Source: Microcaldota archaeon (lineage in GTDB: Archaea; Micrarchaeota; Micrarchaeia; Micrarchaeales; CABMGC01). Taken from it: a DNA stretch of 35,636 bases. The notes under the pieces are model-generated. The model was not told the DNA's origin. It worked only from the letters and a program-made list of their open reading frames with translations, and ran no database searches. The stretch is taken from positions 1 through 35,636 of the forward strand of contig JAKAUU010000027.1 in assembly GCA_021817505.1 (NCBI GenBank). The letters are read 5' to 3'. Shown in pieces: positions 1,657-25,972 of this stretch (position 1 is its first letter; every line of letters starts with the position of its first letter). The position numbers and the translations under genes are program-made.

Positions 1657-1687
1657 CTGGAAGATGACTATTGTCCGTAGTGGTTTA

Positions 1688-2137
1688 ATGAATTGGACTA
1701 CAATAAAAACAAATCTGGCGAACTTTATGGCGATGAACAAGATGCTGATGTTTGCAGCATTGTTTATTGGCATAACAGTTGCTTCTGCACAGACTAGCTC
1801 TTTCAACGTATCTGGGCTACAGGGCACTCTCTGCAATGTAATCTCCGCAGTACAGGAGGTAATTGGAGTAATAGCCATACTGCTCTTCGTAATAGGCGGA
1901 GTGATGTATGCCGTAGCGCATATGATGCCTAGCGCAGGGTCACTGAGAGCAAACCTGCAGGGATGGTCTATGGGAATGATAGTCGGCGGAGTTGTAGGAC
2001 TAATACTGGTAATACTCGCTCCTGGAATAGTCGGCTTCATAGTTGGCAACGGTCTAAGCACAACTGCAAATGGACAAAACGCTGGCTTAAGTGCAGTTTC
2101 CGGTTGCTCAGGATTGGGAATATTCGGCGGCTACTAA
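1688..2137 (+). CDS. Small secreted/membrane two-TM protein, VirB2/TrbC/CedA1-like pilin candidate
   Basis: Track ORF begins at 1664; ATG 1688 fits the promoter spacing better. Hydrophobic signal-like segment 'MLMFAALFIGITVASAQ', then two hydrophobic helices 'VIGVIAILLFVIGGVMYAVAHMMP' and 'MGMIVGGVVGLILVILAPGIVGFIVG' separated by a short basic loop. This is the size and topology of conjugative-type pilins. Confidence 0.6.
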   Translation: MNWTTIKTNLANFMAMNKMLMFAALFIGITVASAQTSSFNVSGLQGTLCNVISAVQEVIGVIAILLFVIGGVMYAVAHMMPSAGSLRANLQGWSMGMIVGGVVGLILVILAPGIVGFIVGNGLSTTANGQNAGLSAVSGCSGLGIFGGY

Positions 2138-2282: not shown

Positions 2283-3029
2283 ATTGGTGTTTATCTGGGA
2301 AGCATACTTGCAGAGTCATTCGAGACATATAAGTCCAATATAAGGCTCGTAGTCCTATTCTCGATACCCTTCCTCATAGCATTCATCATACCATTCCTTG
2401 CCCCGCTTCCCACTTACGTCAGCGCAGGAGCAATCTTCCTCAGGAGTGCAAGCCTCTTCTATAATGCAACCCCAGTAAACCTTAGCATAATGGCGATAGC
2501 AGAATTCTTCTCACTGCTCTTCCTAAGCCTGGCATTCGTTCTTATAAGCCTGATAGTAAAATCCAGAAGGACTCATGTCAAGATAGGGCAGATGGCATTC
2601 AAGGAGATAGAGAAGAACATAAGCAAGATCTTCACAGTCCTTCTGATCAGCACCTTCATCCTGATAGTGGCAAATGTTGCAGGGTACTACAGCGGGCATG
2701 AAGCGATAATAACGAGTGTCGTAGGGTTCATCATCTTCACGGCAATATTCTATATGCCTAGCGCCATAGTCGTAGATGGGAAGAGCATAACGCGCGCATT
2801 AAAGGAGAGCATAAAGCTGCATTCAAAGGAGCCGCAGTACTTCCTAATCTGGCTTTTCAGCCTGATAGTGATAATATCTGCGGTTGACCTGATAGTGATG
2901 GCACTAACCGGCGGTGCAATATTCTCAAGCTACATAGTTTTGGTGATAGTCTCATTGTTTGTACTTCCATATTTTGTCATCTTCCAGGCTGAAGCATACA
3001 TGAATAAATTCAAGCTGCTGAAACACTAA
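2283..3029 (+). CDS. Polytopic membrane protein, unknown function; start uncertain
   Basis: The track ORF starts at ATG 2490. The frame is open back to a stop at 2271 and encodes a plausible protein: ...IGVYLGSILAESFETYKSNIRLVVLFSIPFLIAFIIPFLAPLPTYVSAGAIFLRSASLFYNATPVNLSIMAIAEFF... No in-frame ATG/GTG/TTG exists between 2271 and 2490; ATT at 2283 is only a placeholder start. Confidence 0.65.
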   Translation: MGVYLGSILAESFETYKSNIRLVVLFSIPFLIAFIIPFLAPLPTYVSAGAIFLRSASLFYNATPVNLSIMAIAEFFSLLFLSLAFVLISLIVKSRRTHVKIGQMAFKEIEKNISKIFTVLLISTFILIVANVAGYYSGHEAIITSVVGFIIFTAIFYMPSAIVVDGKSITRALKESIKLHSKEPQYFLIWLFSLIVIISAVDLIVMALTGGAIFSSYIVLVIVSLFVLPYFVIFQAEAYMNKFKLLKH

Positions 3030-3066: not shown

Positions 3067-4365
3067 ATGCGACTGCAAGCTCTTGTACTGCTCTCTGTAT
3101 TCATTATGCTTACCGGACTCCTGCATGCCTCATTATTCATAACTCCGCCTGGTTATTCCACAATAGTATCTAACTCTCCGCTCCCATGCACCCCCGTAAT
3201 TACTGTTGGGAGCGCCATACCTGCTACAGAAGGCGGCGGCGCGATACTTACCTCACTACCTGCAAACTCTTATGCGATAGAAATAGCCATAGTTGCTACA
3301 ATCCTCTCAATAATGCTTGTAGCAATAATGTACATGGTAGGGAAACTCTTCCCCCATTCCGGCATAATGGGATGGATCAACCAGGAATACTGGGAGATAG
3401 CGAAATCCGTGCTTATTGTCATAATAATATTCGGGCTCCTCGCTTTCCTTAGCAACGTTGCCGTAAGCATGACGAATACGCCGGTTACTGCTTATTCAAA
3501 GACTAATTCCTATCTTAACAATCTCAATGGCCTGGTATACTCGTCAGAGACGTACCTGCTCACAGTTGACTCTTATACTGCTGCAGGCTGGTGCACTCTG
3601 GGCACTGTGGAGTTCGGAACAGCCCTGCTCAACAGCATCGTGGCAAATTATTACGTTCCGATACCAATACCAATAATACTCGCAGGCATCAAGCTGGGCC
3701 TGTCGTTCAAACTTCTTTCAACGTCAACTCTGCTGATAGGGACAGACCCTACAATAGGGCAGCTGCAATCCCTATTGACAGATACCGTGCTACTGCTCTA
3801 TTATCCGTTATCTATGCTCGACCTCATACTAATCGAGATACTTCCGGCACTCGTGTGGATAGGCCTTGGATTCTTCATACCGTTTGGCCTTGTCTTCAGA
3901 TCACTCCCATTCATACGCAGGATAGGGGCATCGTTCATAGCCATAGGCATAGCGCTATCCCTGTTGCTGCCAATGACATTGGTCATGCTGAACTATCCTG
4001 TAACTCAGGCATTTCAGGGAATACTGCCTATTGTCACTATAAAGTCAACATCTTCGCTCAACTGCAACCTCAACAGCGTTGTACTGGATTTTGTATGCAA
4101 AGCAGTTGGCGAGGTAATAAGCCTAAGCTCTGCATACCAGGCAAATCAACTCAGGCTCTTTGCCGGATTTTACTGGGGAGGTTCGGCCTTTGCAGGCATA
4201 TACACGATACTAAACGTCCTGGTCCCGTACATGGCATTCATGCTGCTTCAGGAAGTATTGCTGATAATTGATGTAGTTATAATATATTCCATAGCAGATA
4301 ATATTGCAAGGGCTCTTGGAGGCTCCTTAAGGACAAGCCTGGGTGGAAAGCTGAAATTGATATAG
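3067..4365 (+). CDS. Polytopic membrane protein, VirB6/TrbL/CedA-like candidate (paralog 1 of 6)
   Basis: 432 aa, signal-like N-terminus, TM hairpin with 'QEYWEIAKS' between helices, and the shared motif 'FRSLPFIRRIGASFIAIGIALSLLLPMTLVMLNY'. Confidence 0.7.
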   Translation: MRLQALVLLSVFIMLTGLLHASLFITPPGYSTIVSNSPLPCTPVITVGSAIPATEGGGAILTSLPANSYAIEIAIVATILSIMLVAIMYMVGKLFPHSGIMGWINQEYWEIAKSVLIVIIIFGLLAFLSNVAVSMTNTPVTAYSKTNSYLNNLNGLVYSSETYLLTVDSYTAAGWCTLGTVEFGTALLNSIVANYYVPIPIPIILAGIKLGLSFKLLSTSTLLIGTDPTIGQLQSLLTDTVLLLYYPLSMLDLILIEILPALVWIGLGFFIPFGLVFRSLPFIRRIGASFIAIGIALSLLLPMTLVMLNYPVTQAFQGILPIVTIKSTSSLNCNLNSVVLDFVCKAVGEVISLSSAYQANQLRLFAGFYWGGSAFAGIYTILNVLVPYMAFMLLQEVLLIIDVVIIYSIADNIARALGGSLRTSLGGKLKLI

Positions 4366-4372
4366 TGGTAAG

Positions 4373-5536
4373 ATGTTTTTCCTGTTTTCAACCGCAACGG
4401 CCTCTTATACTGCCTGCACATTCGGAGGAATCGATTCTAACAGCTGGATCCAGATTAACACCCTGCTTCTTGTGATAGCCATATCATTGGGAGGCGTCTT
4501 TTACGCATTCAGCAATCTTCTGCCGCTAAGACAGGGTGAGAAGATGAAAGGGATGGTAAAGGCCGAGATCTTCCAGGGGATAATAGGGATAGTGATAGTG
4601 CTCATACTATTCACTTCGGCAGTTACCTGGTGCAATATAGGCGCATCACTGACGAGCTCTTCAGGCATAACTGCCAGCAATCCTATGACCTTCTCAGAGT
4701 CATATCTTCAGAAGCTCCTATTCTCAACAGGGCTTTCCCTGTTTACTAAGGTGTACTCCGAATCAGCCATTCTTTTCATAGACGGCCAGGTGCTGAACAG
4801 TCTCTCAACTTTCATAGAGCGTTTGCAGGTCAGCTACAAGTATGTCGCAGTATCATTTGCCGGGATCGGAGACCCGTGGGAGTCATACGCACTTGCATTT
4901 GTTGAATCTAACACTATAATATTTTCCGTGGTATTCGGGGTATTATTTGTAATATACCTTGTCCTTCCAATAGTTTACTCCACGGCGTTGACCGTGGTAG
5001 TGCCTACTGCGCTGGTAATGCGCATGGTTCCGTTTCTCGGCCCCAAGATACGCGAGGTATCCGATGCAATATTTTCAATAGCAATAGCGGCATACTTCAT
5101 ATTTCCGCTTATGATAATTATGAACCAGCTGTTCATAACGGCCATGTATACCCCATGTACTGCAACCACCACTGCCTTATGCAACCCATACTCCAGCTAT
5201 CTCAGTTCCTACAATCTGGCCAACATCCCTGTGAGTTCCCTATTCAGCAATCCTCAGGAGAATCTAGGCAGCGGCTTTTCAATATCGGCAAATTTCTTCC
5301 AAAACATAATCACAAGCACAGGAGGCATATTGCCGACTATAGAAAGGATGTTCACCGATTTGGTATTCTTCCCAAGCCTTCTTGTAAGCTATTCGCAGGA
5401 TGTTGCAATATTTGCATTCCAAGGCGTATTCCTAATAGGTCTTGACATACTTGTCACCGTTGCATTCGCACAAGCGGTAACCAAGGGCCTCAATTCAGTA
5501 TCCGGATACGTATCCGGAGGAGGCTTCTGGGGCTGA
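4373..5536 (+). CDS. Polytopic membrane protein, VirB6/TrbL/CedA-like candidate (paralog 2 of 6)
   Basis: 387 aa, TM hairpin 'GGVFYAFSNLLPLRQGEKMKGMVKAEIFQGIIG', shared motif 'MRMVPFLGPKIREVSDAIFSIAIAAYFIFPLMIIMN'; 7 nt from previous gene. Confidence 0.7.
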   Translation: MFFLFSTATASYTACTFGGIDSNSWIQINTLLLVIAISLGGVFYAFSNLLPLRQGEKMKGMVKAEIFQGIIGIVIVLILFTSAVTWCNIGASLTSSSGITASNPMTFSESYLQKLLFSTGLSLFTKVYSESAILFIDGQVLNSLSTFIERLQVSYKYVAVSFAGIGDPWESYALAFVESNTIIFSVVFGVLFVIYLVLPIVYSTALTVVVPTALVMRMVPFLGPKIREVSDAIFSIAIAAYFIFPLMIIMNQLFITAMYTPCTATTTALCNPYSSYLSSYNLANIPVSSLFSNPQENLGSGFSISANFFQNIITSTGGILPTIERMFTDLVFFPSLLVSYSQDVAIFAFQGVFLIGLDILVTVAFAQAVTKGLNSVSGYVSGGGFWG

Positions 5537-5541
5537 TCACC

Positions 5542-7191
5542 ATGGATAATAAATTGCTAATATTCTCGCTTCTTGTCTTTGCCTTAGTCTCAAATCACGC
5601 ATCCGCCAGTACGACGACCACGAGCAACTTTGTAACGCAGTACTCTGCGTTAAGCGCATGGCTCCCGGTTGTATTCATCGGGATAATCCTGAGCATGGCC
5701 CTGATTGGAATATACTATATGATAGGCTACCTGTTCAATAACAGCGGCATAAAATCAGCAGCCCTATACGAGTATGCAAAACTGGTTGGACTGACTATCG
5801 TAGTGATAGTGATAATAGGGGTATTCTACATGTTCGGCTCAACGCTCCTATTCACAGGCTCTGCGACCCAGACACAGATAACCGGTGTCTGCAACCAGCT
5901 GGTCAATTCAAAGATATCCTTCCTGAGCAGCAATATAAACTCCAATTCCCCGGCAAACACGGTATGCAGCCAGATAATAGACCCTTCATCAAATACTGGT
6001 TCGGTAACGAGGAATCTTGATTACGGCCTCGGAGCCACATACATAATCGAGGATAACCTTACCAACCAGTCCGTGCAGTCGCTGAACGCAGTATATGTCT
6101 TCAATGCAATGCTGGGTTTCCTGAGGAACTATAAGGTATCAGATGCCATATGCTTCCCGGTCGACTGCCTCATTCCGGACGGCCCTCAGGCATTCTCTGT
6201 AGGCATACAGGCAGCTCCTTATTCCGGATATCAGCTTGGAAACACCATACCTGTAATATTGGGACTGGAAGCGCAGCTGATATTCTACTTCTTGCTATTC
6301 CAGCTTGTAATAACAATACTGATGCTCCTAATCTGGCCTTACCTTCTTGCAGCAGGCCTTATCCTGGAAACTAACATGTTTACCAGAAGGCTCGGCGGAT
6401 TTCTGATAGCAATGGTGATATCAAGCATGCTGGTGTACCCTACAGTATTCCTGTTCGAGTACTCCTCTCTGAACAACATCCAGAACCTGCAGCCTTATGG
6501 TGCCTCGGCAATACCAAACCTTGCACTATGCGGTGCGCCTGCAAGCGGACTATCATACAGCACTCTGGGAGTACTGACATTACTGGTAAAACTCCCGTTA
6601 ACCCCGCAACTCACAGGGAACCAGAACAACGGGGTTTACTGCTATACCAGCGCGAGCCAGCTTCCCTTAGGTTACATATACAAGGCCACCTTGCCTGAGT
6701 CATACAGCGATATGGTGCCTAACGCCTACGCCAACTATCCATCCAATACCCTGATACCTGCATGCCCTCAGAAAAATAACGGAATGTGCTTCATAAAAAA
6801 GAGCCTAAGCTTCTATGTCTTCCCTAAGATAAAAGACACTCTTGCACTGTATTTCACATGGCCGCAGAGCGGAAATATCCTGAATTTCGAACTGCCATTC
6901 ATACTTCCATCGGCAGACATAGCCTCAAGCATAACGAACGCGGTCACTCAGCTTGAAAACCTTCTATCGGGAAATTTTGCAGGATCCTTCCCTACGGGCC
7001 TTTACTATTATGTTGATCCTGCACACACAATCGCAGCACTGTTGGCTCTCATCAACATCTATGCGATAGATGCCGTAACGGGATTCATACTGCCCATATT
7101 CAACATACTCATACTCATATCGTCAATATTGGAGATATCAAAACTGCTCGGAGGAGAGGCAAGCATACTGGGATTATCTAAATTCGTGTGA
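5542..7191 (+). CDS. Polytopic membrane protein, VirB6/TrbL/CedA-like candidate (paralog 3 of 6), largest predicted extracytoplasmic loops
   Basis: 549 aa, signal peptide 'LLIFSLLVFALVSNHASA', hairpin 'YYMIGYLFNNSGIKSAALYEYAKLVG', motif 'ETNMFTRRLGGFLIAMVISSMLVYPTVFLFEY', several Cys in predicted loops. Confidence 0.7.
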   Translation: MDNKLLIFSLLVFALVSNHASASTTTTSNFVTQYSALSAWLPVVFIGIILSMALIGIYYMIGYLFNNSGIKSAALYEYAKLVGLTIVVIVIIGVFYMFGSTLLFTGSATQTQITGVCNQLVNSKISFLSSNINSNSPANTVCSQIIDPSSNTGSVTRNLDYGLGATYIIEDNLTNQSVQSLNAVYVFNAMLGFLRNYKVSDAICFPVDCLIPDGPQAFSVGIQAAPYSGYQLGNTIPVILGLEAQLIFYFLLFQLVITILMLLIWPYLLAAGLILETNMFTRRLGGFLIAMVISSMLVYPTVFLFEYSSLNNIQNLQPYGASAIPNLALCGAPASGLSYSTLGVLTLLVKLPLTPQLTGNQNNGVYCYTSASQLPLGYIYKATLPESYSDMVPNAYANYPSNTLIPACPQKNNGMCFIKKSLSFYVFPKIKDTLALYFTWPQSGNILNFELPFILPSADIASSITNAVTQLENLLSGNFAGSFPTGLYYYVDPAHTIAALLALINIYAIDAVTGFILPIFNILILISSILEISKLLGGEASILGLSKFV

Positions 7192-7197
7192 TTACAA

Positions 7198-8361
7198 ATG
7201 AGAAAGCAAATATTATTAGCGGCTGTCCTTGCAATTCTTGCAATGCCAATTCTAAGCGCATCATCAACAAGTTTGTTGCCCAGCGGCCAGAATTTATTTG
7301 ACTGCACCACCTTATTCTCCAATAGCGTCAACGGGGCAAACCTGGTAAGCCCCCAGATAAATACTTATTCATCTTACAGCGGATTATTGTCCATATCCCT
7401 GATCATAGTGCTGATGATGTTTGTCCTAATGGGGTTAATATTCGTACTTGGGATCGCCTTCAAATGGGATACTCTAAAGAATTTTGCAAAAACAGAGTAT
7501 CTTGAAGGATTTGTCAGCATATTGATAATACTTCTAATAATGGGGGGCGTGGCAGCATTTAACGGTACTATGAATTTCATGGGGAACCTTTTTGCAGTAG
7601 GCACCGGAACAACGGCACCCACAACATTCCAGACGCTATACTCTTCATTATGCTCAAATATATTTCAAAAGATGATCTTGCCAGGCTTCCTTACCTACAT
7701 CTGGATAGACATCAATAAACTCATGATCAACCTTATCAGCAGCCTTACCATCACGATCCAGCCTGGAGGCTTTGGCATAGCCATACAGCCTTTCTACGGA
7801 TTTTCTATGATAAACCAATTGCTTTGGCTAGAAGGTCCGTCCTCAATATTCATGCTTGTCGGAGGTGCAATGATAATAGTCCTGCTTTTCGTGATCTATT
7901 ACCTATTCCCGCTCTTCCTTTTCTTAGGAGTGGCCCTGAGAACATTCCCATGGACAAGGGCTGCAGGAGGGGCATTCATCGCGCTGTTCATAGCCTTTTA
8001 CATATTCTTCCCTGTCATAATGTATCCGTTTACTGTCTCTTACTCACAGTATAATTCTCCAAGCAGCAGCGCGCTTGGGATATGCAATGTTGGCAACACC
8101 CAGTGCCCTTCCGGAATCGGCGTATTTCTTGGTTCATTCAGCGCATATCTGGGCGTTCTCGATCTTGATGTAGGATATACTGCTTACACCAACCTCGTAT
8201 ATTTCTCGCAGATACTGCTTTATTTTGCAACAAATGTTTTCGGGTTAGTCATATCATTGTTGATATCATATGAAATCCTGGGGATATTCGGAAGCCTTCT
8301 GGGATCCCGTTCGGTAAAAGGCGATAGCATATTTAAGAAGATATTATCACCTAAAAAATAG
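7198..8361 (+). CDS. Polytopic membrane protein, VirB6/TrbL/CedA-like candidate (paralog 4 of 6)
   Basis: 387 aa, signal peptide 'ILLAAVLAILAMPILSASS', hairpin 'FVLGIAFKWDTLKNFAKTEYLEGFVS', motif 'LRTFPWTRAAGGAFIALFIAFYIFFPVIMYPFTVSY'. Confidence 0.7.
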   Translation: MRKQILLAAVLAILAMPILSASSTSLLPSGQNLFDCTTLFSNSVNGANLVSPQINTYSSYSGLLSISLIIVLMMFVLMGLIFVLGIAFKWDTLKNFAKTEYLEGFVSILIILLIMGGVAAFNGTMNFMGNLFAVGTGTTAPTTFQTLYSSLCSNIFQKMILPGFLTYIWIDINKLMINLISSLTITIQPGGFGIAIQPFYGFSMINQLLWLEGPSSIFMLVGGAMIIVLLFVIYYLFPLFLFLGVALRTFPWTRAAGGAFIALFIAFYIFFPVIMYPFTVSYSQYNSPSSSALGICNVGNTQCPSGIGVFLGSFSAYLGVLDLDVGYTAYTNLVYFSQILLYFATNVFGLVISLLISYEILGIFGSLLGSRSVKGDSIFKKILSPKK

Positions 8362-8369
8362 TTGAAACG

Positions 8370-9443
8370 ATGAACCTGCTGTTTGGAAACTTTTCAGGAT
8401 TCCTCTTGTCGGCAGCTTGCTCCATGACAAGCATACTCTCATCCCCTTACACCTTCTGGTTCCCAATAGTGGTATTGGCCGCAATAACGGTAATATTAAT
8501 AGCAATAGTGATAGGCATGCTTGCCCCTCTTCTCGGCAGGAATGCCCTCGGTTCATGGGCGAGGATAAAGGCCTACGAAGAGATAGCCACCGTAGTGCTG
8601 GCGATAATATTCCTGCTGTTTTCATCAATGCTATGTTCGATAAATCCGGCACCTGCAGTGAGCTCAATAGGAATTCTTCCAAGCGAATGCTCCGCCACGT
8701 CAAGCGTCCCAGTTGATAATCTTTGGGGGCTTGCGCTATGCAACATGCATACATTCAACCAGCACATTACCGATGTGATGTATTCAGTATATTGGCTAAA
8801 TTTCATACAGGATCTTCCGTTGCAGATAACTATCCGTGGAGGTTTCTCCGGAATAGGGCTGCGTTCAACCGCAGGCCTATCTACGGGGAGCGGGGATCTA
8901 TACCTTACGCCTTTATTCAGCCTTCTTTTTGCAGAGCTAATGGTTTCAATGCTGCAGGTAGTGCTTCTTGCAGCTGCACCTCTGTTATTCTCATTCCTCA
9001 TAGGCATAGGACTTATAGCAAGAGCCTTTGGAATAACGAGGACATTTGGAAATGCCATGATAGCACTGGGGATAGGGATAGGCTTCATATACCCGCTATT
9101 GGTAAGCGTAAGCTACGGCTTCATAAACACCACATTCAGCAATGTCCTTTCCGCCGCAGGAACCTCTGGAATATACCTGCTTAAGGATTTATCATTTTCA
9201 TCATTCCTTGCGATATTTCTGCCACTATTCAGTCCAACTACCTATCTTTCTGCAACCGTAGGGGTAGGGGCGCAGTTATGGAACCTGGTCAGCCTGATAG
9301 TATTCCTATTCTCCATAGTGGGGATAGGCCTGATATTCATACCTCTGCTAAACTTCATGATACTAGACGCGTTCGTAGTGGACTTCTCCAGCTCGCTTGG
9401 CCAGAGAATATCATTCATGGAGCTGCTTACCAATGTGATATGA
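8370..9443 (+). CDS. Polytopic membrane protein, VirB6/TrbL/CedA-like candidate (paralog 5 of 6)
   Basis: 357 aa, hairpin 'GMLAPLLGRNALGSWARIKAYEEIATV', motif 'ARAFGITRTFGNAMIALGIGIGFIYPLLVSVSYGF'. Confidence 0.7.
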   Translation: MNLLFGNFSGFLLSAACSMTSILSSPYTFWFPIVVLAAITVILIAIVIGMLAPLLGRNALGSWARIKAYEEIATVVLAIIFLLFSSMLCSINPAPAVSSIGILPSECSATSSVPVDNLWGLALCNMHTFNQHITDVMYSVYWLNFIQDLPLQITIRGGFSGIGLRSTAGLSTGSGDLYLTPLFSLLFAELMVSMLQVVLLAAAPLLFSFLIGIGLIARAFGITRTFGNAMIALGIGIGFIYPLLVSVSYGFINTTFSNVLSAAGTSGIYLLKDLSFSSFLAIFLPLFSPTTYLSATVGVGAQLWNLVSLIVFLFSIVGIGLIFIPLLNFMILDAFVVDFSSSLGQRISFMELLTNVI

Positions 9444-10531
9444 TGAAACTTTACCCGATATATGCTGCGCTTATCGCCCTGGCATTAATATCAGGAATCT
9501 CAAATGCTTCGCCATACTTTTCATCATCGTATTGCAGTGCAGGAGGCGAGATAAGTTCGGTAGCCCCATGGTACTGCAGCCAGATAAATGTGCAGACGCA
9601 GAACGTATGGTCGCAATGGGCCCCTCTTGCGCTTACAGTGGTGTTATTCTCATTCCTCATAGGCGTGATAATATTCATGGCAGGGTTTGTTGCAAACAGC
9701 CAGAGGGTAAGGAATTTCGGAGTAGGGGAGATGTATGAATCCCTTGCCTCTCTTTTAATAGTGGCAGGATTCCTATTCATAACAGCTGTGATATTCGGGC
9801 TAATTCCTGCAATAGTTACAGGTCCAATAAACCCTTACAACACATCACTTAGCTATATATCATCTACGATAAATACGACCAGCTCTCTTGCATCAAGGCT
9901 ATTCACAATAGCAGCTCTTGACAGGTATTACGCTGGAACAACCGTAAGACTGTGCTTCCTAGAACAGTCCCGCGCTACATGCACCCCAAGAGCCTACAAG
10001 CCATTTGCAATAACCGTGTTGCTATTCTACTGGCCTGCATGGGCTCTAATGCAGTTTATGCTGGATGCGCTCATCTCGCTTTATACGCAGTACTACTTCA
10101 TATTATTCTTCCTGTACGCAGGAATGCCCGTATTCCTTATACCTGGTATAATCCTCCGCGCATTCCTTCCAACTAGAGGCGTAGGCGGAATTATGATAGG
10201 GATAGCGATAGGCTTCTTCCTGGTAATGCCTGTTCTTTTCTCTGTTGCCTATTACTTCACAAATCTGGGCGCTGTGAGAGGCTTATCCAGTACTTATGCT
10301 ACGCTTACGCAGTACGGGGCTGGCTCCGGAGCGCAGACCAACGCGCTCTCTCCATATTCGCCTCTTGTCCTTTCAGTAGCCAATGCGAATAGCGTCATGA
10401 GCGGCTTCTGGCTTGCAATATTATTCTTCCCCGCACTGATACTTGCGATAACCTACACCGTAGTGACAAACATCGCCAACCTCATAGGTGGAGTGACTGC
10501 AACCAGCGGCAGGTTAAGATCGCTTGTATAA
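9443..10531 (+). CDS. Polytopic membrane protein, VirB6/TrbL/CedA-like candidate (paralog 6 of 6)
   Basis: The track ORF opens at 9278, but ATG 9443 (MKLYPIYAALIALALISGISNASPYFSSS, signal peptide) overlaps the preceding TGA by one base (TGATG). Hairpin 'FMAGFVANSQRVRNFGVGEMYESLAS', motif 'LRAFLPTRGVGGIMIGIAIGFFLVMPVLFSVAYYF'. Confidence 0.75.
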   Translation: MKLYPIYAALIALALISGISNASPYFSSSYCSAGGEISSVAPWYCSQINVQTQNVWSQWAPLALTVVLFSFLIGVIIFMAGFVANSQRVRNFGVGEMYESLASLLIVAGFLFITAVIFGLIPAIVTGPINPYNTSLSYISSTINTTSSLASRLFTIAALDRYYAGTTVRLCFLEQSRATCTPRAYKPFAITVLLFYWPAWALMQFMLDALISLYTQYYFILFFLYAGMPVFLIPGIILRAFLPTRGVGGIMIGIAIGFFLVMPVLFSVAYYFTNLGAVRGLSSTYATLTQYGAGSGAQTNALSPYSPLVLSVANANSVMSGFWLAILFFPALILAITYTVVTNIANLIGGVTATSGRLRSLV

Positions 10532-10816: not shown

Positions 10817-11641
10817 TTATCCGTTCTTACTTTTATCAATTCCAATGGCAGCTGCAATCCCCAGCCCAAGTGCACAATAAACGCCTCCGACTATCTCCGC
10901 GCCCTTTGCAGAAGAAGTGGTGGCAGCAGCAAAGATATCGATAGGTACTACAAACAAGGTGGCGGCAAAGGCTCTTGGAATTAACGCTCCAAAATCCATA
11001 TCCTTGAACCAGCTAGCTAAAGGATTTTCTCCAGATTCCCTATACTTGAATTTGTCCTTTATTTCCCATACCTTGGTAGCCCATGCAAGTATCCCAAGTG
11101 CAGAGAGATCTACGATATCCCGAAGGTCCTTCCCAGGTACATTTGTATCATCAGCCACTCTTGTAATTGTATTCTTCTTCAGTCTTTCTTCAAGCATGTT
11201 TTCCTTCCGTTCAATGGATATAATGGCATAATTCCTCTCTGCAGGGGTTTGATTGCCATAATTCTTGTCGTATACGTGTCCATATCCCTGGTTATGCTCA
11301 GTTTTACGATATGCTCTATATGCCAGTTCCTTACCTGTTACCTCGACGTAAGCCTCATTTATTCTTTTTTCAGCAAAACTGTCTCTCAAGCTCTCGGCTT
11401 TGTCATAAGCAAATCCAAGTGCTTGCTTGGCATCTTTGACATTGCCTCTATCAACATCGCCTATAACAGCTACAGCATAGGGGCCCAAATCCCTATCATA
11501 CAATATCGGATAAAGCGTATTCTGGACAGAATTTACGGAGTTAGTTAATCCATGAGACGGGTTCGCATCAGCCCGCAGAGAGATGCCTGCCAAAGCTACG
11601 CCTGCTGTTGCAACTGTCGCATACCTCTTAACCTTTTGCAT
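10817..11641 (-). CDS. Predicted exported/membrane protein, unknown function, antisense to the surrounding cluster
   Basis: 274 aa, signal-like N-terminus 'MQKVKRYATVATAGVALAGISLRADA', C-terminal hydrophobic segments. TATA-like GTTTAAATAC on minus strand at 11666-11675, about 25 nt upstream of the ATG. Confidence 0.7.
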   Translation of the reverse strand: MQKVKRYATVATAGVALAGISLRADANPSHGLTNSVNSVQNTLYPILYDRDLGPYAVAVIGDVDRGNVKDAKQALGFAYDKAESLRDSFAEKRINEAYVEVTGKELAYRAYRKTEHNQGYGHVYDKNYGNQTPAERNYAIISIERKENMLEERLKKNTITRVADDTNVPGKDLRDIVDLSALGILAWATKVWEIKDKFKYRESGENPLASWFKDMDFGALIPRAFAATLFVVPIDIFAAATTSSAKGAEIVGGVYCALGLGIAAAIGIDKSKNG

Positions 11642-11695
11642 ATTCTCAATTCAATTGATGTTCTAGTATTTAAACGAATGCCAGAAAAGCACAAG

Positions 11696-11704
11696 TTTTA
11701 TAAT
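11696..11704 (+). promoter_or_regulatory. TATA-box-like TTTTATAAT
   Basis: 20 nt before ATG 11725; leaderless-type spacing. Confidence 0.45.
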
Positions 11705-11724
11705 TAAAAAGCCTATAGTCAATC

Positions 11725-13041: not shown

Positions 13042-13863
13042 TTGAACAAGAATTTTTACTTCATAATATTCTTGGCGTTTCTCAGCGCATCGTTCATATT
13101 TGCAGTAATAATATCAATTCTCCCACCAAGCTTATTCCCATTAGCAATATTGCTTATGATAATAGGGCTATTCCTTGACGTGCTTGCAGCATCTACAAAG
13201 TTCTATGCGTATTACTTCACACCTTTCCTAAAGCGCAAGAATAATACAGTGGTATTGAATGCCGAGCCTCCATTCTACGTAACTGCATCAGGCAATGCGA
13301 TAATAGTAAGGGAGGATGAGAACGTATATGCAAGCGTCTTTGTGAAGATACCTGTCTATCTATCATCAACGGAGATGTCAGATGAAGATAAACTGAACTT
13401 CGCAAGGTCATTTTCAAAGCTGATAACGATAAACAGCAAATATCCGATGAAGCTGGCTTCGCAGCTATACTATCTAAACAAGGATGAATACATACGCAGA
13501 ATAAGCGCAAAGCTTAATGAGGTCGAGGACAGGTATGAAAAGCTAAAGGCAGACAAGACCACTCCAGACAGGCTTCTGGGGCGTGCCGAGGGGGAGCTAG
13601 CGATGTGGCATAATCTATTCGACGGTGTGAACAAATCGCCTTCGCAGAACCAGATCGCCTATACTATGGTGAGCGCCATGGGGGCAAACGAAGAGGAAGC
13701 GGTGGCGATAGCGATGCAGCGCGCAGAGGAGATCTCAGCAGGAGCAGGTTCAATATTCGGAGTCACTGCGAGCATAGCTTCCGGGGAAGAGATGCTTACT
13801 TTCATAGAGCCTGAATACAGCATACCTCCAGCCACAATAAGCGAACTTTTGAAGAAGGATTGA
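13042..13863 (+). CDS. Two N-terminal TMs plus soluble domain resembling VirB3 + VirB4 N-terminal domain
   Basis: 273 aa, TTG start. TM pair, then 'GNAIIVREDENVYASVFVKIPVYLSS...KLNFARSFSKLITINSKYPMKLASQLYYLNKDEYIRRISAKL...AMWHNLFDG...EEEAVAIAMQRAEEISAGAGSIFGVTASIASGEEMLTFIEPEY', the element order of VirB4 N-terminal domains. Confidence 0.55.
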   Translation: MNKNFYFIIFLAFLSASFIFAVIISILPPSLFPLAILLMIIGLFLDVLAASTKFYAYYFTPFLKRKNNTVVLNAEPPFYVTASGNAIIVREDENVYASVFVKIPVYLSSTEMSDEDKLNFARSFSKLITINSKYPMKLASQLYYLNKDEYIRRISAKLNEVEDRYEKLKADKTTPDRLLGRAEGELAMWHNLFDGVNKSPSQNQIAYTMVSAMGANEEEAVAIAMQRAEEISAGAGSIFGVTASIASGEEMLTFIEPEYSIPPATISELLKKD

Positions 13864-13867
13864 TATC

Positions 13868-14692
13868 ATGGACGAAGAGACTATAGCAAGAGTCGGCATA
13901 ACCTTGGTAGTCGCGATGATATTTGCCACTTACTCTTCAGCTTACGGCCCCTTATACATACTTGCGCTAGCAATATTCATAATCGCGGTTATACTGATAA
14001 CGATACTTAGCCTTGCAGACTTCCTCCTATTCCCATTATTCACAAAGATGCTAAAGATCACTACAATACCTGCGAAAGATTATACGATTCCAAAGGAGAA
14101 TGAAGGTGTGGTCAAATATGTTAACGGGCTGTACTATGCTACAGGTTACATAACTGCAAACGTCTACAATTACGTCTTCCAGGCAGAGCAGATGACGGAG
14201 GGAGAGGATTCAGAGATGGCCATGGGTCCGGACAAATGGGAGAAGGCCCTAATGAGCATAAAGTTCCCGTTCAAATTCGTGGCGATAGGCCAGGCGGTCG
14301 ACATCCAAAAGTACAGGGATGACCTGGAAGGCAGGAGGGGCTATCTCGAATTCCAGTTCTCCAGAAGCGAAGGAGATGCCCACACTTCATCAACAGTGCT
14401 TGATGATCTAAAAAGGAGAATGCGCGTTATCCAGGTAAGGATAGACAGGCTTGGCGCCGGTGAGCGTCCTCTGAGCAGCATGATGTACATAGAGACTACC
14501 TCTGTCGGAATAACCCTTAATGACTCTTTAACCAATCTGACCCAGCAGGTAGACCAGCTCCAAACGGTATTCAACGTATTCGACCTCAATCTGGTAAGGG
14601 TCGTGGGCAGGGAGATGTACCAGCTTTACAAACTGAATTACTACCTTCCGGAAATGGACAGGATTATATCAGATTTCCAATTCCAGAAATGA
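13868..14692 (+). CDS. Second two-TM + VirB4-N-like protein (diverged paralog of the preceding gene)
   Basis: 274 aa, TM pair followed by 'EGVVKYVNGLYYATGYITANVYNYVF...KWEKALMSIKFPFKFVAIGQAVDIQKYRDDLEGRRGYLEFQFS...LKRRMRVIQVRIDRLGAGERPLSSMMYIETTSVGITLNDSLTNLTQQVDQLQTVFNVFDLNLVRVVGREMYQLY'; same architecture and size as 13042-13863; 4 nt apart. Confidence 0.55.
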   Translation: MDEETIARVGITLVVAMIFATYSSAYGPLYILALAIFIIAVILITILSLADFLLFPLFTKMLKITTIPAKDYTIPKENEGVVKYVNGLYYATGYITANVYNYVFQAEQMTEGEDSEMAMGPDKWEKALMSIKFPFKFVAIGQAVDIQKYRDDLEGRRGYLEFQFSRSEGDAHTSSTVLDDLKRRMRVIQVRIDRLGAGERPLSSMMYIETTSVGITLNDSLTNLTQQVDQLQTVFNVFDLNLVRVVGREMYQLYKLNYYLPEMDRIISDFQFQK

Positions 14693-14722: not shown

Positions 14723-16237
14723 GTGAGTGGCATGGGACTGATCCGCATACAGAATATAATGAGCAACGAACTTGCAAAGCGCGTCTTCCTTAGCAGGCCT
14801 CCCGAGCCTCCGCCTGAATTCCTGCTCAATGATCCTACAGACTCGATATTCATAGGTATAACGCGAAGATATGGCGTACCATTGACATGGACATTCTCAA
14901 CTCTGACAAATCCCCACATATCCGTAGTCGGAATAACCGGCGCAGGAAAATCATTCTTTGTCAAGACCTTCCTCATAAGGGCAAGTTATGTGTGGAATGC
15001 AAACGCGATAATAATAGACTGGGCAGGGGAGTACAAATCCTGGGTTACCCAGAGCGGAGGGAAGATAGTCGCATTGGGCAAGGGCGACTTCATAAATATA
15101 ATGGACCTTGCAGGAATGAAGCCTCTTGACAGGGCAAAGCAGATAATGAACGCATTGGATATACTTACCGACATAACCCAATTCGCCGAGCAGCGCAGGC
15201 TGACTGCAGAAGCACTGGAACAGACATATGTAAATGCGGGTTTCCCTCTCACCCAGATACCTTCCGGTGAGAAGGAAGCTCCTACCCTTAAGAATGTCAC
15301 AACGCTTCTGGAAGAGAAACTTGGAGAAGGAAACTACGCCTATCCTGCAGAGCTTGAGAATGCAATATACAGGCTCAGGGAGTTCTCCAGGGAAGGAGAG
15401 GATTTTTTTGCAAGAAAGAGCACGATAGATCTTGACAAGCTGATAACATCAGGACTTGTGGATATAGACCTTTCCAGCCTGCCTGACGAGCGCTTCAGGG
15501 CGCTTGCAGGACTATTCATACTACAGACCTTAAAGGAGAAGATGCGTTTTGAGGGATGGAGCGCCAATAAGGGATTAAAGGCCATAGTTGTTCTTGATGA
15601 GGCATGGAAGATAGCCAGCGATGAAAGGAGCGATGCAATAACTATAATAAGAGAGGGCAGAAAGTACCAGTTCGGGCTCATAGTCGCTTCGCAGAACCCT
15701 ACGGATATAAACGAAGCGATATTCTCAAACGTTGGAACATCAATAATACTGAGGATAAGGTTCGAAAAGTTCCTGGACTATCTGCAGGGCTCGCTGGGCT
15801 TCACTCCATTCATAAGGGAAGAGATAAGCAGATTCGGCGTGGGGCAGGCAGCGATAGACCTTTCATTCCAGACCTCGGTAATATTCCCATCCGTATTTAT
15901 AATAGAGAGAATAGTGGGCGAGATGCCATTGAACGTATATAATATAACCCTGGGAGATATAGTGCAGGAGAGTGAAATGGGAGATACTAATATACAGAAG
16001 GACTACTATCTAAAGAAGATGGACATAATGGCAAAACTCGTACGCACGAACGCAAGCACCGATTCAATAAACAGCATAGTTTCAGAGATGGACAGGATAA
16101 ACAGAACGGTGGATGTAAAGACCATGGTGACAATCCTGACCAAAAACAATGTAAACAGGGAAGCCATAATACAGTTCTTAAGGGAGGTGGGCATACCTGA
16201 CAATATTATAAGCAGGGTATTCATATATACAAGATGA
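14723..16237 (+). CDS. HerA/VirB4-type (CedB-like) P-loop ATPase
   Basis: 504 aa. 'NPHISVVGITGAGKSFFVKTFLIRASYVWNANAIIIDWAGEYKSW' (Walker A and 'D-x-x-GEY'), 'KAIVVLDEAWKI' (Walker B), 'IREGRKYQFGLIVASQNPTDI' typical of the HerA/FtsK superfamily. GTG start at 14723 or ATG at 14732. Confidence 0.85.
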   Translation: MSGMGLIRIQNIMSNELAKRVFLSRPPEPPPEFLLNDPTDSIFIGITRRYGVPLTWTFSTLTNPHISVVGITGAGKSFFVKTFLIRASYVWNANAIIIDWAGEYKSWVTQSGGKIVALGKGDFINIMDLAGMKPLDRAKQIMNALDILTDITQFAEQRRLTAEALEQTYVNAGFPLTQIPSGEKEAPTLKNVTTLLEEKLGEGNYAYPAELENAIYRLREFSREGEDFFARKSTIDLDKLITSGLVDIDLSSLPDERFRALAGLFILQTLKEKMRFEGWSANKGLKAIVVLDEAWKIASDERSDAITIIREGRKYQFGLIVASQNPTDINEAIFSNVGTSIILRIRFEKFLDYLQGSLGFTPFIREEISRFGVGQAAIDLSFQTSVIFPSVFIIERIVGEMPLNVYNITLGDIVQESEMGDTNIQKDYYLKKMDIMAKLVRTNASTDSINSIVSEMDRINRTVDVKTMVTILTKNNVNREAIIQFLREVGIPDNIISRVFIYTR

Positions 16238-16241: not shown

Positions 16242-16541
16242 ATGGCAGGTACATTCATAATAAACAAGATAGAGCTCAAACGCATACTGAATTCATTCGG
16301 AGTAAACATAAAGAGCGTTGAGAACATGCTCGGTGCACTTGACAAGATGCACAAGAACGTCAATGCCATAGCGTTTGCAAAGATGCTGTTCGGAGTAGGC
16401 CTCAAGGAGAGCCAGGTAGAAACCATATTGAGAAGGATAGGGATAGATGACCTCTCAATATCAGACATATTTGACAGTATAGACGAGGATAAGATACATC
16501 AGTCATTCGGAAGGGTCGTCGAGTTGAATGTAGATTTGTAA
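16242..16541 (+). CDS. Small helical protein related to the C-terminal domain of the upstream ATPase
   Basis: 99 aa. Aligns without gaps to the ATPase tail (see findings). Starts 5 nt after the ATPase stop. Confidence 0.65.
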   Translation: MAGTFIINKIELKRILNSFGVNIKSVENMLGALDKMHKNVNAIAFAKMLFGVGLKESQVETILRRIGIDDLSISDIFDSIDEDKIHQSFGRVVELNVDL

Positions 16542-16552
16542 TAGATGGTCAA

Positions 16553-16933
16553 ATGCCTGATAGCTACTGTATTATATGCGGGAAAAAGAAGGACGGGATA
16601 GAGGTTGCCGATGACAATGTCCTTGCCACATTACGGTGGATCAAGACGAATGTAACTAAAAATGCCAGGAACAACAGGCTTGTCGTGTGCAAAGCATGCT
16701 ATCCTGAATACAGCAAGATGCGGAAGAAGTATATGGGCAGAAGGACAGCCTACGTTGCCCTGGGCGTACTCTTTCTGGTATTATCACTGATAATATCTTC
16801 AGGAGCGTGGCCATCAGCATTACTGATAAGCATAATCATAATTGCACTTCTTTACCTGCTTTCGCTCATCAATTATATGCCTGGACTAAGGATCAAGAAA
16901 GAGGTACCAAAAAACAAGAAAAACAAGGCGTAG
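16553..16933 (+). CDS. Zinc-finger (CxxC...CxxC) membrane protein
   Basis: 126 aa 'YCIICGKKKDG...LVVCKACYPEY' followed by two hydrophobic helices and a basic tail. Confidence 0.7.
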   Translation: MPDSYCIICGKKKDGIEVADDNVLATLRWIKTNVTKNARNNRLVVCKACYPEYSKMRKKYMGRRTAYVALGVLFLVLSLIISSGAWPSALLISIIIIALLYLLSLINYMPGLRIKKEVPKNKKNKA

Positions 16934-16988
16934 TGCACCTTTTTATTCTTTCATTTATCAATAATAACTGTTAACGGAGGTAGTTGTT

Positions 16989-17714
16989 TTGGCTGAGAAT
17001 ACCGTATTGCTTCCAAAGGTCGAAGAGCTGCAGATAGACGGCAAAGTTAAGACCTCAATTTCTGATATAAAATCAAAACTTTCAAAGCTGCCGTTTTATG
17101 ACGTTGGCTCTGATGGCACTTCGGTAACGGTGGCAAGAGTGGAGAGCAGGAACATAGACAAGATGCCATACCTGTTCCATATAGTCAAGGTCAATCAAAG
17201 CGGCATCGACGTAACCTATTCGATAATACCCGATACCAGCGAAAGCATGAGAAGAGCATATGTCATAAAGAGCGTTGCAGGAATCCTCTCATTGCTGAGC
17301 AATGATTATGAGGCAGATATGCCAAAGCTTCTTCAGTATATAGAGTCAACTCTGGGGAATCTTATGGAAGGAATATCCCAGAATTACAACATACTTTATA
17401 ACAAATACGAGGCTCTTACTACCGAATACAGGGAGATAAAGAGGCTTAACAACGAGCTCAGTGCATCAAACAAGAACATAACTGTGCAAATATCACAGCT
17501 GAGCGAAGAAAACAAAGAGCTGCGGGATGAACTGGACAAGCTTAAGAAATACTCTGACGAGGCGCTGATGGGCTTGGTGCAGGAGTGGGTAGAGGTGCAT
17601 GACAACTCGATAGATACGGAGCAGTTTGCAAAGAATTATTCAGTGTCGGTTCCAAGAGTCGAACAGATACTAAACAAGATGGTGACTCTCGGATATCTTG
17701 AGGTAAAGTCATAG
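16989..17714 (+). CDS. Coiled-coil protein with C-terminal winged-helix-like domain
   Basis: 241 aa, TTG start. Coiled coil 'ALTTEYREIKRLNNELSASNKNITVQISQLSEENKELRDELDKLKK', C-term 'IDTEQFAKNYSVSVPRVEQILNKMVTLGYLEVKS'. Confidence 0.7.
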   Translation: MAENTVLLPKVEELQIDGKVKTSISDIKSKLSKLPFYDVGSDGTSVTVARVESRNIDKMPYLFHIVKVNQSGIDVTYSIIPDTSESMRRAYVIKSVAGILSLLSNDYEADMPKLLQYIESTLGNLMEGISQNYNILYNKYEALTTEYREIKRLNNELSASNKNITVQISQLSEENKELRDELDKLKKYSDEALMGLVQEWVEVHDNSIDTEQFAKNYSVSVPRVEQILNKMVTLGYLEVKS

Positions 17715-17889: not shown

Positions 17890-20319
17890 GTGTTGATAAA
17901 AAGGAAGAAAAAGATACCTACTGCCCTTCTAATAGGGATAATCGCAGTCTTATTAGTCGTAGTGGTAATAGGCGGTATTTATTTTGCAGTCCAGAGCTCG
18001 ATAAAACTGCCACCGATAATCAATTCACAGCCTAAGCCTATCACAGGATCGCTCCAGTTACAAAAATCATTTTTCGGGAACTATAACAGCTCTGCAGAAT
18101 ATGCTGCTTATGCAAAAATAAGCTATAACGAGCTTAACGCAACAAATTCCTTATTCAGCCTCAGGGTCTTTGCCAAGAATCCAATGACGAAGATATACCT
18201 GATAGACACGGACAATTACTGCATAAACTGTTTCCTAGGCTCTACAATGGAGCAGGACCTTAAAAGTTATCTAAACCAATACGGGCTTATACTTAACCAG
18301 AGCAGTTTCAATTACATACAGCTAAATAACATCTCAACAATAGCTCCAAATTCAATAGTCATAGTTCCCTCCGGTCTGATACCATTATCATTCCTGCCCA
18401 TCCAGAACAGCTCCCTCCAGGGCTATAATTCATGTCCGCTCGACTATAATTACAGCATGTTAAACCTGCTCAACAAGGGCGACGCCATAATATACATAGG
18501 TGACAACTTCTCAAGGTCAGTATCGTGCGGCCAGCAGATAATACAGACCCCGCAAAGTATCCTGAACGGCATGGCAAACATCGGGATATTTACGCATTAT
18601 CTTAATAAAACAAATGCTGCAGAGTCAAGGAATCAGACCTATCTCACGTTCAAGAATCCAACCTTTATAATCGGAGGACAAATGTATTACAGTTCATCCT
18701 ATACCCGGATCTATAACGGCAGTATAATCTCCCTGAGCAATTATCCTTCTTATGGGTGGAAAAACGCAACCACTCTATCAAGAGACATAGCTGCGCTTAT
18801 AGACCTCCACTACTGGGACTCCGAAGTGGCTTCCGGTTCTTCAAACAACATATCATTTAATAAGAGCACCTCATCAGGAACAGTTGAAGTGGTTACAAAT
18901 ACCACGCAGATAACGGCATCAACTCTTCAGGGACTTAGCCTGGTTAACACATACGCGCTTGCTACTGCTTACTTCTCCGCTTCAGGGAAATTCAGCGAGG
19001 CCAACCTGCCGTTCAGGATAAACGGAAGATCTGACGGGAGCATAAACATGTCCTCTGCATTCTCCCAGACCAAGGGCAGTACTATAAGCGCAGTAGCAAC
19101 AAACATAAGCGGGAATTTCGACTCGTTCCACATATACATATACAACATGAGCGGCAACGAACCCGTCCAATCCCTTTATGTGGGCCAGATGACTCCAAAC
19201 GTTACTTTCATAAAGCCGATATCATTTTATCTTCCTGGGGGATACTATTACGCTTCTCTGATAGACGCAAACAACAAAACTTACGCTACCGGGATATTTT
19301 ACATATACCCTACTTCCATAACCCCGATATTCAACCTTTCTGCATTCACCAGAAAAGCGTTCAAATTCTCCCTATCCAGCGGAGGCTATCCCATAAGCGG
19401 AATACCTTACAACATATCGATAAACGGGCAATATCTGCAAAGCGGGACAGTAAACAACACCATAGTGAACTACACCCTTCCGGAGAGTGCGGTTCTGAAC
19501 TACGGGAATGAAACATTCAAAATAGGAATATTCGGTTCATCTGTAACTTACTTAATTCCATACCCTAATAATCAGCTGCAACCGCCTATATTATTGATAT
19601 TATTCGGAATAGCAGGAGTCTTCATAATAATAATAAACAAGATACTGGTGCCTCCGAATATAGACAGGTATTACATAAACGTACAGGAGTTCAGGCACAT
19701 GGACAGGGCAAAGGTGAAGGAACCGCCTGAAACTATACTAAAGGTATTCGATCAGGTAAACTACTATTATCATTGGAGATACATGCCCCTTACTGCGGAA
19801 GAGATAAAATCAGGAATATCGGCAAATGTGAGATATGGGAACATGCCCATAGCGGTTACCCTGCAAAATACTTATAATGTGCTGAACAAGATGTCCAGAA
19901 AAGGCCTTATCGTAGAGGCTGCAGATTACTTCGCCCCGAAGAGCTGGGAAGATGCATCAAAACACGACATAGAGTATCTTGTCATATTCAGGAAGCTTAG
20001 GGACTACAGCGTTGCAAATGCCATGCTGTTTACTGATGTAGACGCATATGATAATATGGACATGATAATAACAAACAAGGGAGTTCAGAATTATGTGTAT
20101 ATATATTCGAAGCTCTCTGAAAATCTGAAACTAAGCGGCATACCTCTTAGCAAGAACCACAGGACCTTCATAGTCTTCCTTACGGATGAAGACAGATTAT
20201 CATTTATCGACAGGCTAAATACTTCGTACGGCGAGGCAAGCGAGATACTCAGATTGAGCATAGAATCTCTGGATGTAAGACTGATAGATACGGGCGACCT
20301 TAACGAGCTAAAGCTCTGA
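17890..20319 (+). CDS. Large membrane protein: N-terminal TM, ~530-aa predicted ectodomain, second TM, cytoplasmic winged-helix-like domain
   Basis: 809 aa, GTG start. 'IPTALLIGIIAVLLVVVVIGGIYFAV' TM; long Asn/Ser/Thr/Tyr-rich region with many N-x-S/T sequons; 'ILLILFGIAGVFIIIINKI' TM; C-terminal ~210 aa with 'LQNTYNVLNKMSRKGLIVEAADYFAPK' wHTH-like segment. Confidence 0.75.
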   Translation: MLIKRKKKIPTALLIGIIAVLLVVVVIGGIYFAVQSSIKLPPIINSQPKPITGSLQLQKSFFGNYNSSAEYAAYAKISYNELNATNSLFSLRVFAKNPMTKIYLIDTDNYCINCFLGSTMEQDLKSYLNQYGLILNQSSFNYIQLNNISTIAPNSIVIVPSGLIPLSFLPIQNSSLQGYNSCPLDYNYSMLNLLNKGDAIIYIGDNFSRSVSCGQQIIQTPQSILNGMANIGIFTHYLNKTNAAESRNQTYLTFKNPTFIIGGQMYYSSSYTRIYNGSIISLSNYPSYGWKNATTLSRDIAALIDLHYWDSEVASGSSNNISFNKSTSSGTVEVVTNTTQITASTLQGLSLVNTYALATAYFSASGKFSEANLPFRINGRSDGSINMSSAFSQTKGSTISAVATNISGNFDSFHIYIYNMSGNEPVQSLYVGQMTPNVTFIKPISFYLPGGYYYASLIDANNKTYATGIFYIYPTSITPIFNLSAFTRKAFKFSLSSGGYPISGIPYNISINGQYLQSGTVNNTIVNYTLPESAVLNYGNETFKIGIFGSSVTYLIPYPNNQLQPPILLILFGIAGVFIIIINKILVPPNIDRYYINVQEFRHMDRAKVKEPPETILKVFDQVNYYYHWRYMPLTAEEIKSGISANVRYGNMPIAVTLQNTYNVLNKMSRKGLIVEAADYFAPKSWEDASKHDIEYLVIFRKLRDYSVANAMLFTDVDAYDNMDMIITNKGVQNYVYIYSKLSENLKLSGIPLSKNHRTFIVFLTDEDRLSFIDRLNTSYGEASEILRLSIESLDVRLIDTGDLNELKL

Positions 20320-21951: not shown

Positions 21952-21955
21952 AGGA

Positions 21956-22462
21956 TCACATGCTCTTTAGCTTTCTCCTCTCCTTCTCCATAACTGCATA
22001 CGCCGTGCTGTGCTTTCCACCGTCAAGCAGTATGTTTATCCCTGATTTTGCGATTCTTATTTCATCTATGCTGCCTATAAGGCTTATGGTGTCACCGTAT
22101 ATCTCAACGGAAGCGCCGCTCACCTCTTCCATATAAAGCTTTGCCTTGCCATCAGTTCCTATTATCCGGGATACCATCCGCTTCTTCTTCAGTTTATTGG
22201 AAGCAATATCGCCTATATCTATACTGTCAAAGAAATAATTATCATTAAGAAGCTTGAGTGCCGTGCTGAGCTTGAAGCCACGGGCTATTGCCTGCACAAT
22301 ATTTCTTGCAACATATTCGGAATAGGAATCCCCCTCTATTCGGACCTCATTCCTATTCTCTATAACTATCTTGCAGGTGATCCTCTTTTCTATGGTTGGC
22401 AACGCCTCTTTCAGAGCACGTACTCTTGCATTAGGTATGAGTATCTGTTCCATATCAAACAC
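21956..22462 (-). CDS. KH-domain RNA-binding protein (Dim2/Pno1/Krr1-like)
   Basis: 'EQILIPNARVRALKEALPTIEKRITCKIVIENRNEVRIEG...ARGFKLSTALKLLNDNYFFDSIDIGD...RMVSRIIGTDGKAKLYMEEVSGASVEIYGDTISLIG' typical archaeal Dim2-type double KH; next to top6B. Start may be the internal MEQ. Confidence 0.88.
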   Translation of the reverse strand: MFDMEQILIPNARVRALKEALPTIEKRITCKIVIENRNEVRIEGDSYSEYVARNIVQAIARGFKLSTALKLLNDNYFFDSIDIGDIASNKLKKKRMVSRIIGTDGKAKLYMEEVSGASVEIYGDTISLIGSIDEIRIAKSGINILLDGGKHSTAYAVMEKERRKLKSM

Positions 22463-22654
22463 GCAGATTGCGCATTCTTTTATTAATAACCTTGCGCTTC
22501 GAAGTGTAACATCAGTGCCCTATGCCCTATGTGCACCAGGCATCATGGCGAGAAGCCACTTAAATAATGGTCAAAAAGAATGCGCTCCGTCAGCATACCG
22601 AGAATTGGAAGTTTCAAAGCTTCCAGTAAGCTTTAAATATCTTATTTTATACAT

Positions 22655-22671
22655 TCATGATTGAATCATGA
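22655..22671. promoter_or_regulatory. Perfect inverted repeat TCATGATT-G-AATCATGA, candidate operator
   Basis: 8-bp arms with 1-nt centre, 15-20 nt downstream of TATA-like TTTAAATAT (22632-22640). A second palindrome TTCATGAA lies at 22687-22694, upstream of the wHTH gene. Confidence 0.45.
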
Positions 22672-22711
22672 TTCATTCAGAAACAGTTCATGAATGTTTC
22701 ACGATTCTGTT

Positions 22712-23215: not shown

Positions 23216-23222
23216 CTCGATT

Positions 23223-23249
23223 GGGCCTGCACTATTTCCCCGCAGGCCC
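23223..23249 (+). terminator. Hairpin downstream of the wHTH gene
   Basis: GGGCCTGC (23223-23230), 11-nt loop, GCAGGCCC (23242-23249): perfect 8-bp stem 8 nt after the stop; no strong T-tract. Confidence 0.35.
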
Positions 23250-23368
23250 GTCTACTTATCTGATTGCGTGTTCTTGCCATTTTATTCTACTCGTTAGCTG
23301 TGCCTGCAATCTCCCATGATTCTAAGAACTTTTAAAAGGATTCACAGTCAATTATCTATCTCCGTGAT

Positions 23369-25543: not shown

Positions 25544-25547
25544 CTAT

Positions 25548-25946: not shown

Positions 25947-25972
25947 CTATCTTTCGTATAATATTAACTTAA

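Follow-up and report, generated by a model that had tools for sequence, protein, structure and literature searches.

Micrarchaeota are tiny symbiotic archaea. Why should one of them encode six consecutive, strongly diverged membrane proteins within an operon resembling a type IV secretion system (T4SS), when known rings of VirB6, the pilus platform of such systems, consist of identical subunits? The question is raised by a 35,636-nucleotide contig of a Microcaldota archaeon (JAKAUU010000027.1, contig C8 of an 839-kb, 34-contig genome; here called the window), in which six open reading frames follow one another on the plus strand at 3067–10531, where an initial annotation of the DNA had placed them. 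The six form a set that is ancient, class-deep and duplicated only as a whole, and they are probably non-interchangeable VirB6-type subunits of one Micrarchaeota T4SS-type machine, in which they would form a hetero-oligomeric platform.

The six proteins were annotated from the outset as diverged paralogs, and profile comparisons bear this out. Using 40 loci from related genomes, with one alignment per gene, profile–profile comparison by hhalign gives probabilities of 96.6–99.6 and E-values of 6e-10 to 6e-24 for all 15 pairs of the six, whereas the six against the neighbouring families TM8, X273, X274 and X126 remain below 7%, and nearly all pairs with neighbouring membrane proteins score 12% or less (exceptions among the neighbours themselves are X274 with X126, at 49%, and X273 with X274, at 97.8%). 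This is the comparison that the initial annotation had proposed, and the similarity it reveals exceeds that of transmembrane (TM) composition. Scores against the VirB2 pilin are 0.7–29% (the highest being position 5, A5), with the exception of position 2 (A2; 86%, E 5e-6), which is also matched by the pilin hidden Markov model (HMM) at 2e-7 and whose N-terminal hairpin resembles the pilin. Single-sequence BLAST similarities are weak (A1–A6, E 0.03; A3–A4, E 4e-6), and no Pfam or NCBIfam family matches any of the six.

One copy of a shared motif is present in each protein, as had been noted, with the pattern G-x3-R-x5-R-x2-G-G...P, and it would sit in the proposed VirB6-like helical core. Only two of its residues are invariant in a 33-sequence alignment, R246, which belongs to a TR pair, and P264, which closes the motif (protein 6 numbering); G236, R240, G249 and A254 are conserved at 90% or more. 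An N-terminal hairpin can be aligned in all six, but the conserved acidic residue described for its loop occupies that column at only five of the window positions, the fifth protein having a K there and an E a few residues later. The genes are closely packed, with intergenic gaps of 7, 5, 6 and 8 nucleotides, in keeping with the 5–8 first given; genes 5 and 6 overlap by four nucleotides (ATGA at 9440), and the single-nucleotide overlap of the initial annotation applies only if translation starts at the second ATG (9443).

The number and order of the genes are constant across the class. Relatives were drawn from the genomes of this phylum, many of which are metagenome-assembled, and start codons were chosen mechanically, so that protein lengths are approximate. 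All 58 complete arrays, from 14 families, have exactly six genes in the same order, and one more (L082) brings the total to 59, having six genes once overlapping starts are allowed. VirB2 copy number varies from 0 to 3 across 32 loci in which each of the six occurs once. Arrays of five, four or three genes (L064, L072, L118, L126 and L147) are artefacts of contig or region ends, and a 95-amino acid (aa) antisense A6-like fragment in L062 was left uncounted as a seventh gene. VirB2-type pilin genes are present in two or three copies in L065, L069, L071, L082 and L089, where the six stay constant.

Each position also has a recognizable identity. With position profiles built without the family under test (the underlying alignment used all sequences, unlabelled), 346 of 348 proteins score best at their own position (chance being one in six), and joint assignment places the members of 58/58 arrays correctly. 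In a tree of 162 proteins and 285 columns the position label changes 11 times, against a minimum of six and a shuffled mean of 106, and no position falls outside the family. Mean identity over core columns is 24% within and 19% between positions, and the differentiation of the six is therefore old. In the families closest to the window's own, the array adjoins virB4, ARM-1 being an exception with a relocated array; in more distant families it lies apart from virB4, and genomes have two six-gene arrays together with one further member at another site.

Many genomes hold two arrays, alpha and beta, which were duplicated whole. In 25/25 typable arrays the six genes are all of one type, with no subunit exchanged; the 16 arrays that defined the sets were themselves typed with their own family left out. 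The window's family, its sister family and family f11 resemble neither set clearly, in agreement with a split that predates the alpha/beta duplication, although distance may also explain it. Given the constant number and order and the duplication of whole sets without exchange, what selection maintains is the six as a set.

Several alpha arrays are followed by a giant protein of ~1100–1640 aa, in some cases with a lipobox, and a divergent protein of ~1000 aa often accompanies beta arrays; none of these giant proteins has a significant Pfam family. In L107, L116, L152, L154 and L157 proteins with a single TM segment and ~1300–1640 aa (or cut by the end of the stretch) lie directly 3′ of the alpha array. 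Several begin with a lipobox (FLFGC, ILGC) and so look like surface lipoproteins, possibly host-contact adhesins.

In at least eight genomes a single member of the family occurs, either flanked by a VirB2-like pilin and VirB4 parts or on its own. One such locus lies on contig C29 of the window's own genome (G000; L146:2895–5932), where a VirB2-like protein, a solo VirB6-like protein, a VirB4-N-like protein and a short VirB4 ATPase are encoded. Family f17 (G073) has the solo form only, and no solo member was found in the sampled genomes of f10, f13 and f15. Because solo loci occur in the same genomes as the arrays, the window's own included, a machine with one VirB6 is possible there.

Are the six VirB6 proteins? 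A VirB2/TrbC pilin and a VirB4/CedB-type ATPase are recognized in the operon, upholding the T4SS context initially proposed, and this context together with a structural match makes VirB6 identity likely for all six; we regard the assignment as very probable. The match comes from an AlphaFold2 model of position 6 (predicted local distance difference test, pLDDT, 77.8; predicted template modelling score, pTM, 0.73), for which the first-ranked of 350,542 PDB chains in a Foldseek search is the stalk of R388 TrwI/VirB6 (7o3v_F, probability 0.75). Several observations weigh against the assignment: this match has an E-value of 0.072 and a template modelling score (TM-score) of ~0.3 and is not significant alone; hhalign against an alignment of eight plasmid VirB6 proteins gives 0.2%, the only stretch aligned being the archaeal motif over TrwI 179–199, again not significantly; the TrbL model PF04610 has no match in the window's genome; and the six have neither a PDB sequence match nor a significant VirB6/TrbL profile match. 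The VirB6-type label of the initial annotation is thus likely on operon context and a top-ranked but weak PDB match, and sequence does not show it. This lack of any significant match to a VirB6 or TrbL model is what would be expected if the six belonged to a membrane-protein family with no relation to VirB6 that happens to lie within a T4SS operon. We consider that highly improbable, given the first rank of R388 VirB6, the solo members that sit between VirB2 and VirB4 parts as in a minimal B2-B6-B4 locus, and the pilin-like N-terminus of A2, a likeness reported for CedA to CedA1 and for VirB6 to VirB2 (PMC9905601).

We propose that each subunit has an N-terminal hairpin followed by a VirB6-like helical core, and that the six would assemble together in a fixed arrangement, probably with one copy each, to form the membrane platform for which bacteria use a homopentamer of VirB6. 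This platform would sit on a VirB4 motor encoded in pieces, with X273 and X274 as membrane/N-terminal parts and a separate ATPase, and the machine may build a VirB2-type pilus, or dock one, and transport macromolecules where the cell touches a host or partner. A constant six, duplication as a unit and the lack of exchange or loss are expected of obligate parts of one complex, although conserved gene order, a point on the other side, also follows from selection on the operon. The simplest arrangement would be a ring with one copy of each, in line with the hexameric VirB4. A fuller scenario is possible but somewhat doubtful: an obligate 1:1:1:1:1:1 hetero-hexamer matched to VirB4 would have taken the place of a homo-oligomer in the ancestor of most Micrarchaeota, and a later duplication of the whole set would have given each cell two parallel machines. 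Homo- to hetero-ring evolution is known elsewhere from MCM2-7 and Rpt1-6; the platform, if it is such a ring, would be a rare case among membrane channels.

The part of the initial proposal that suggested a hexamer thus fares less well than the hetero-oligomer itself: the latter has in its favour the exact six, their order in 14 families, and duplication of the set without exchange, whereas the solved VirB6 rings, R388 TrwI (PMC9259494) and DotA (PMC12857230), are all pentamers, which counts against six in a ring. Since archaeal pili too are near fivefold (VirB2-type pili twist by ~74–77 degrees per subunit, close to five per turn; PMC9905601), the main alternative is a hetero-oligomer of other stoichiometry, for example a VirB6-like pentamer of five different subunits whose sixth member acts elsewhere, as pilus base, gate or connection to the giant surface protein, or else a pair of stacked rings. 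The large insertions that distinguish position 3 would suit a subunit placed apart, but hairpin, motif and core are kept similarly in all six, none branches outside the family, and R388 VirB4 is hexameric, so that six would fit the motor; we consider this alternative rather unlikely. The six could also be isoforms that build separate homo-oligomeric rings, one per paralog, to serve different substrates or hosts. Their strongly diverged loops would agree with this, as would the arrays of variable VirB2 pilins in Patescibacteria, explained by host versatility (PMC12102498). Arrays of isoforms, however, gain and lose members, and 58 arrays of six show no such change while VirB2 in the same loci ranges from none to three; the window array is moreover accompanied by a single set of VirB4 parts, and we judge isoforms distinctly improbable. 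We therefore retain the hetero-oligomeric platform with six non-interchangeable subunits as the favoured reading.

Table 1. Genes of the six-gene array and its operon in the window.
Feature	Coordinates	Strand	Evidence and remarks
VirB2/TrbC-type pilin	1664..2137	+	Pfam PF04956 E 9.7e-7 (29.4 bits; cut-off 27.9); signal-peptide-like N-terminus
Conserved multi-TM protein just upstream of array	2490..3029	+	neighbour in 31/32 loci
VirB6-like paralog, position 1	3067..4365	+	432 aa; hhalign against other five 98.8–99.6; positional orthogroup recovered in 58/58 arrays
VirB6-like paralog, position 2	4373..5536	+	387 aa; hhalign against other five 96.6–98.9; N-terminal hairpin VirB2 pilin-like
VirB6-like paralog, position 3	5542..7191	+	549 aa; hhalign against others 96.6–99.3; usually the largest insertions of any position
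VirB6-like paralog, position 4	7198..8361	+	387 aa; hhalign against others 98.6–99.6
VirB6-like paralog, position 5	8370..9443	+	357 aa; hhalign against others 96.9–98.9
VirB6-like paralog, position 6	9440..10531	+	363 aa; best conserved of the six; modelled with AlphaFold2
X273, membrane-anchored, VirB4 N-terminal domain-like, first copy	13042..13863	+	paralog of X274, hhalign 97.8%
X274, membrane-anchored, VirB4 N-terminal domain-like, second copy	13868..14692	+	NCBIfam VirB4 N-part E 0.0014, below cut-off
VirB4/CedB/HerA-type ATPase	14723..16237	+	Pfam DUF87 7.8e-16, AAA_10, TraG P-loop, above cut-off
Three conserved small genes (99, 126 and 241 aa)	16242..17714	+	order next to virB4 kept in nearly all loci
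Large membrane-anchored protein closing the operon (809 aa)	17890..20319	+	kept in 31/32 loci

The remaining genes of the operon are listed with the array in Table 1. The multi-TM protein upstream of the array probably starts before 2490, since its relatives are longer (~245 aa). VirB4 seems to be divided here between a motor gene and separate genes for membrane/N-terminal parts (X273 and X274). An AlphaFold2 model of X274 (pLDDT 75) has R388 TrwK/VirB4 as its top PDB match (Foldseek probability 0.99, E 0.084), and ranks 9–12 and 14 are also taken by R388 VirB4 entries. The ATPase matches the NCBIfam models CedD (8e-20) and CedB (5e-18), and also VirB4/TraC, all below the equivalog cut-offs. 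Among the three small genes, the 99-aa product resembles the C-terminus of the ATPase, the 126-aa product has two TM segments and the 241-aa product a coiled coil; the 809-aa closing protein has no Pfam family, and no relaxase was matched among the operon proteins scanned with Pfam. The closest public relatives of the ATPase come from metagenome-assembled genomes of Ca. Micrarchaeota. At E≤0.001, 281 of the phylum's 295 genomes contain a relative of it, and most of these matches lie below 1e-100, although the weaker ones may be other HerA-type ATPases. Because this distribution is near phylum-wide, the operon is a core system and not a mobile element; it is chromosomal, and searches for position 6 in plasmids and viral contigs, and for the ATPase in viral contigs, found no match.

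Between the array and X273 (10817–12954) lie a 274-aa gene on the minus strand and a 409-aa gene with a charged tail, which are present in some relatives only and strongly variable, and this may be a slot for cargo or effectors. To the right of the operon is a housekeeping block (20335–28135) encoding topoisomerase VI subunit B, a KH-domain protein, a DHH-like protein, eIF2 gamma, ribosomal protein S6e and a CDC48-type AAA ATPase. It is followed on the minus strand by a thermopsin-family gene (28219–29487; Pfam PF05317, E 4e-11, above cut-off), acid-protease-like and secreted, and by at least three related-looking proteins (29665–34093; 391, 295 and 460 aa) with a common 'VKLF.E...YK' stretch, a lineage-specific tandem family with no Pfam match above cut-off.

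A six-part VirB6 set was not found described in open-access full texts, the search covering neither subscription journals nor preprints. The initial statement that T4SSs normally use one VirB6 does not extend to the Rickettsiales, where Rickettsia has five VirB6-like proteins (RvhB6a–e; PMC2653234) and Anaplasma four in tandem (VirB6-1 to -4; PMC7648143). These sets likewise consist of strongly diverged paralogs in which conservation is limited to a short region and large insertions occur, and their bearers too are host-dependent and have small genomes (PMC2653234, PMC7648143); they differ in being four or five, in belonging to diderm bacteria and in having a TrbL/VirB6 domain recognizable by sequence. 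The two would be separate expansions, related at most by a possible VirB6 ancestry.

The Ced (Sulfolobales) and Ted (Thermoproteales) DNA import systems are likewise archaeal chromosomal T4SS derivatives, with a VirB2-like pilin, a VirB6-like CedA or TedA and a VirB4-like ATPase (PMC9905601), and the window ATPase scores best with CedD and CedB models. They have one VirB6-like protein, however, and two-copy VirB4 N-terminal parts are not described in PMC9905601. R388 Trw, whose TrwI/VirB6 and TrwK/VirB4 are the top structural matches of position 6 and X274, differs in having a homopentameric VirB6 from one gene, the proposed base for growth of the pilus, and a VirB4 that is a single polypeptide forming a hexamer of dimers (PMC9259494). 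Among the operon proteins scanned, none was recognized as an outer-membrane part of R388 type.

With the array and its operon, the Micrarchaeota gain a class-wide candidate machine for host contact with named genes. ARM-1 (Microcaldus variisymbioticus, AP024486.1) carries the array (L131) at ~342.7–350.5 kb, with VirB4 encoded at ~427 kb, and cryo-electron tomography has shown host nanotubes docking on a 21-nm barrel in its envelope (PMC11329633). The six-gene machine could belong to this barrel, a candidate link for which a co-culture with published tomography and proteomics exists (PMC11329633). Also closely related are the solo loci of Micrarchaeota themselves (for example G000 contig C29, L146), which share the VirB6-like family, the VirB2-like pilin, the VirB4-N-like protein and a small VirB4 ATPase, yet have one VirB6-like gene, and so provide a built-in comparison for the six-gene machine.

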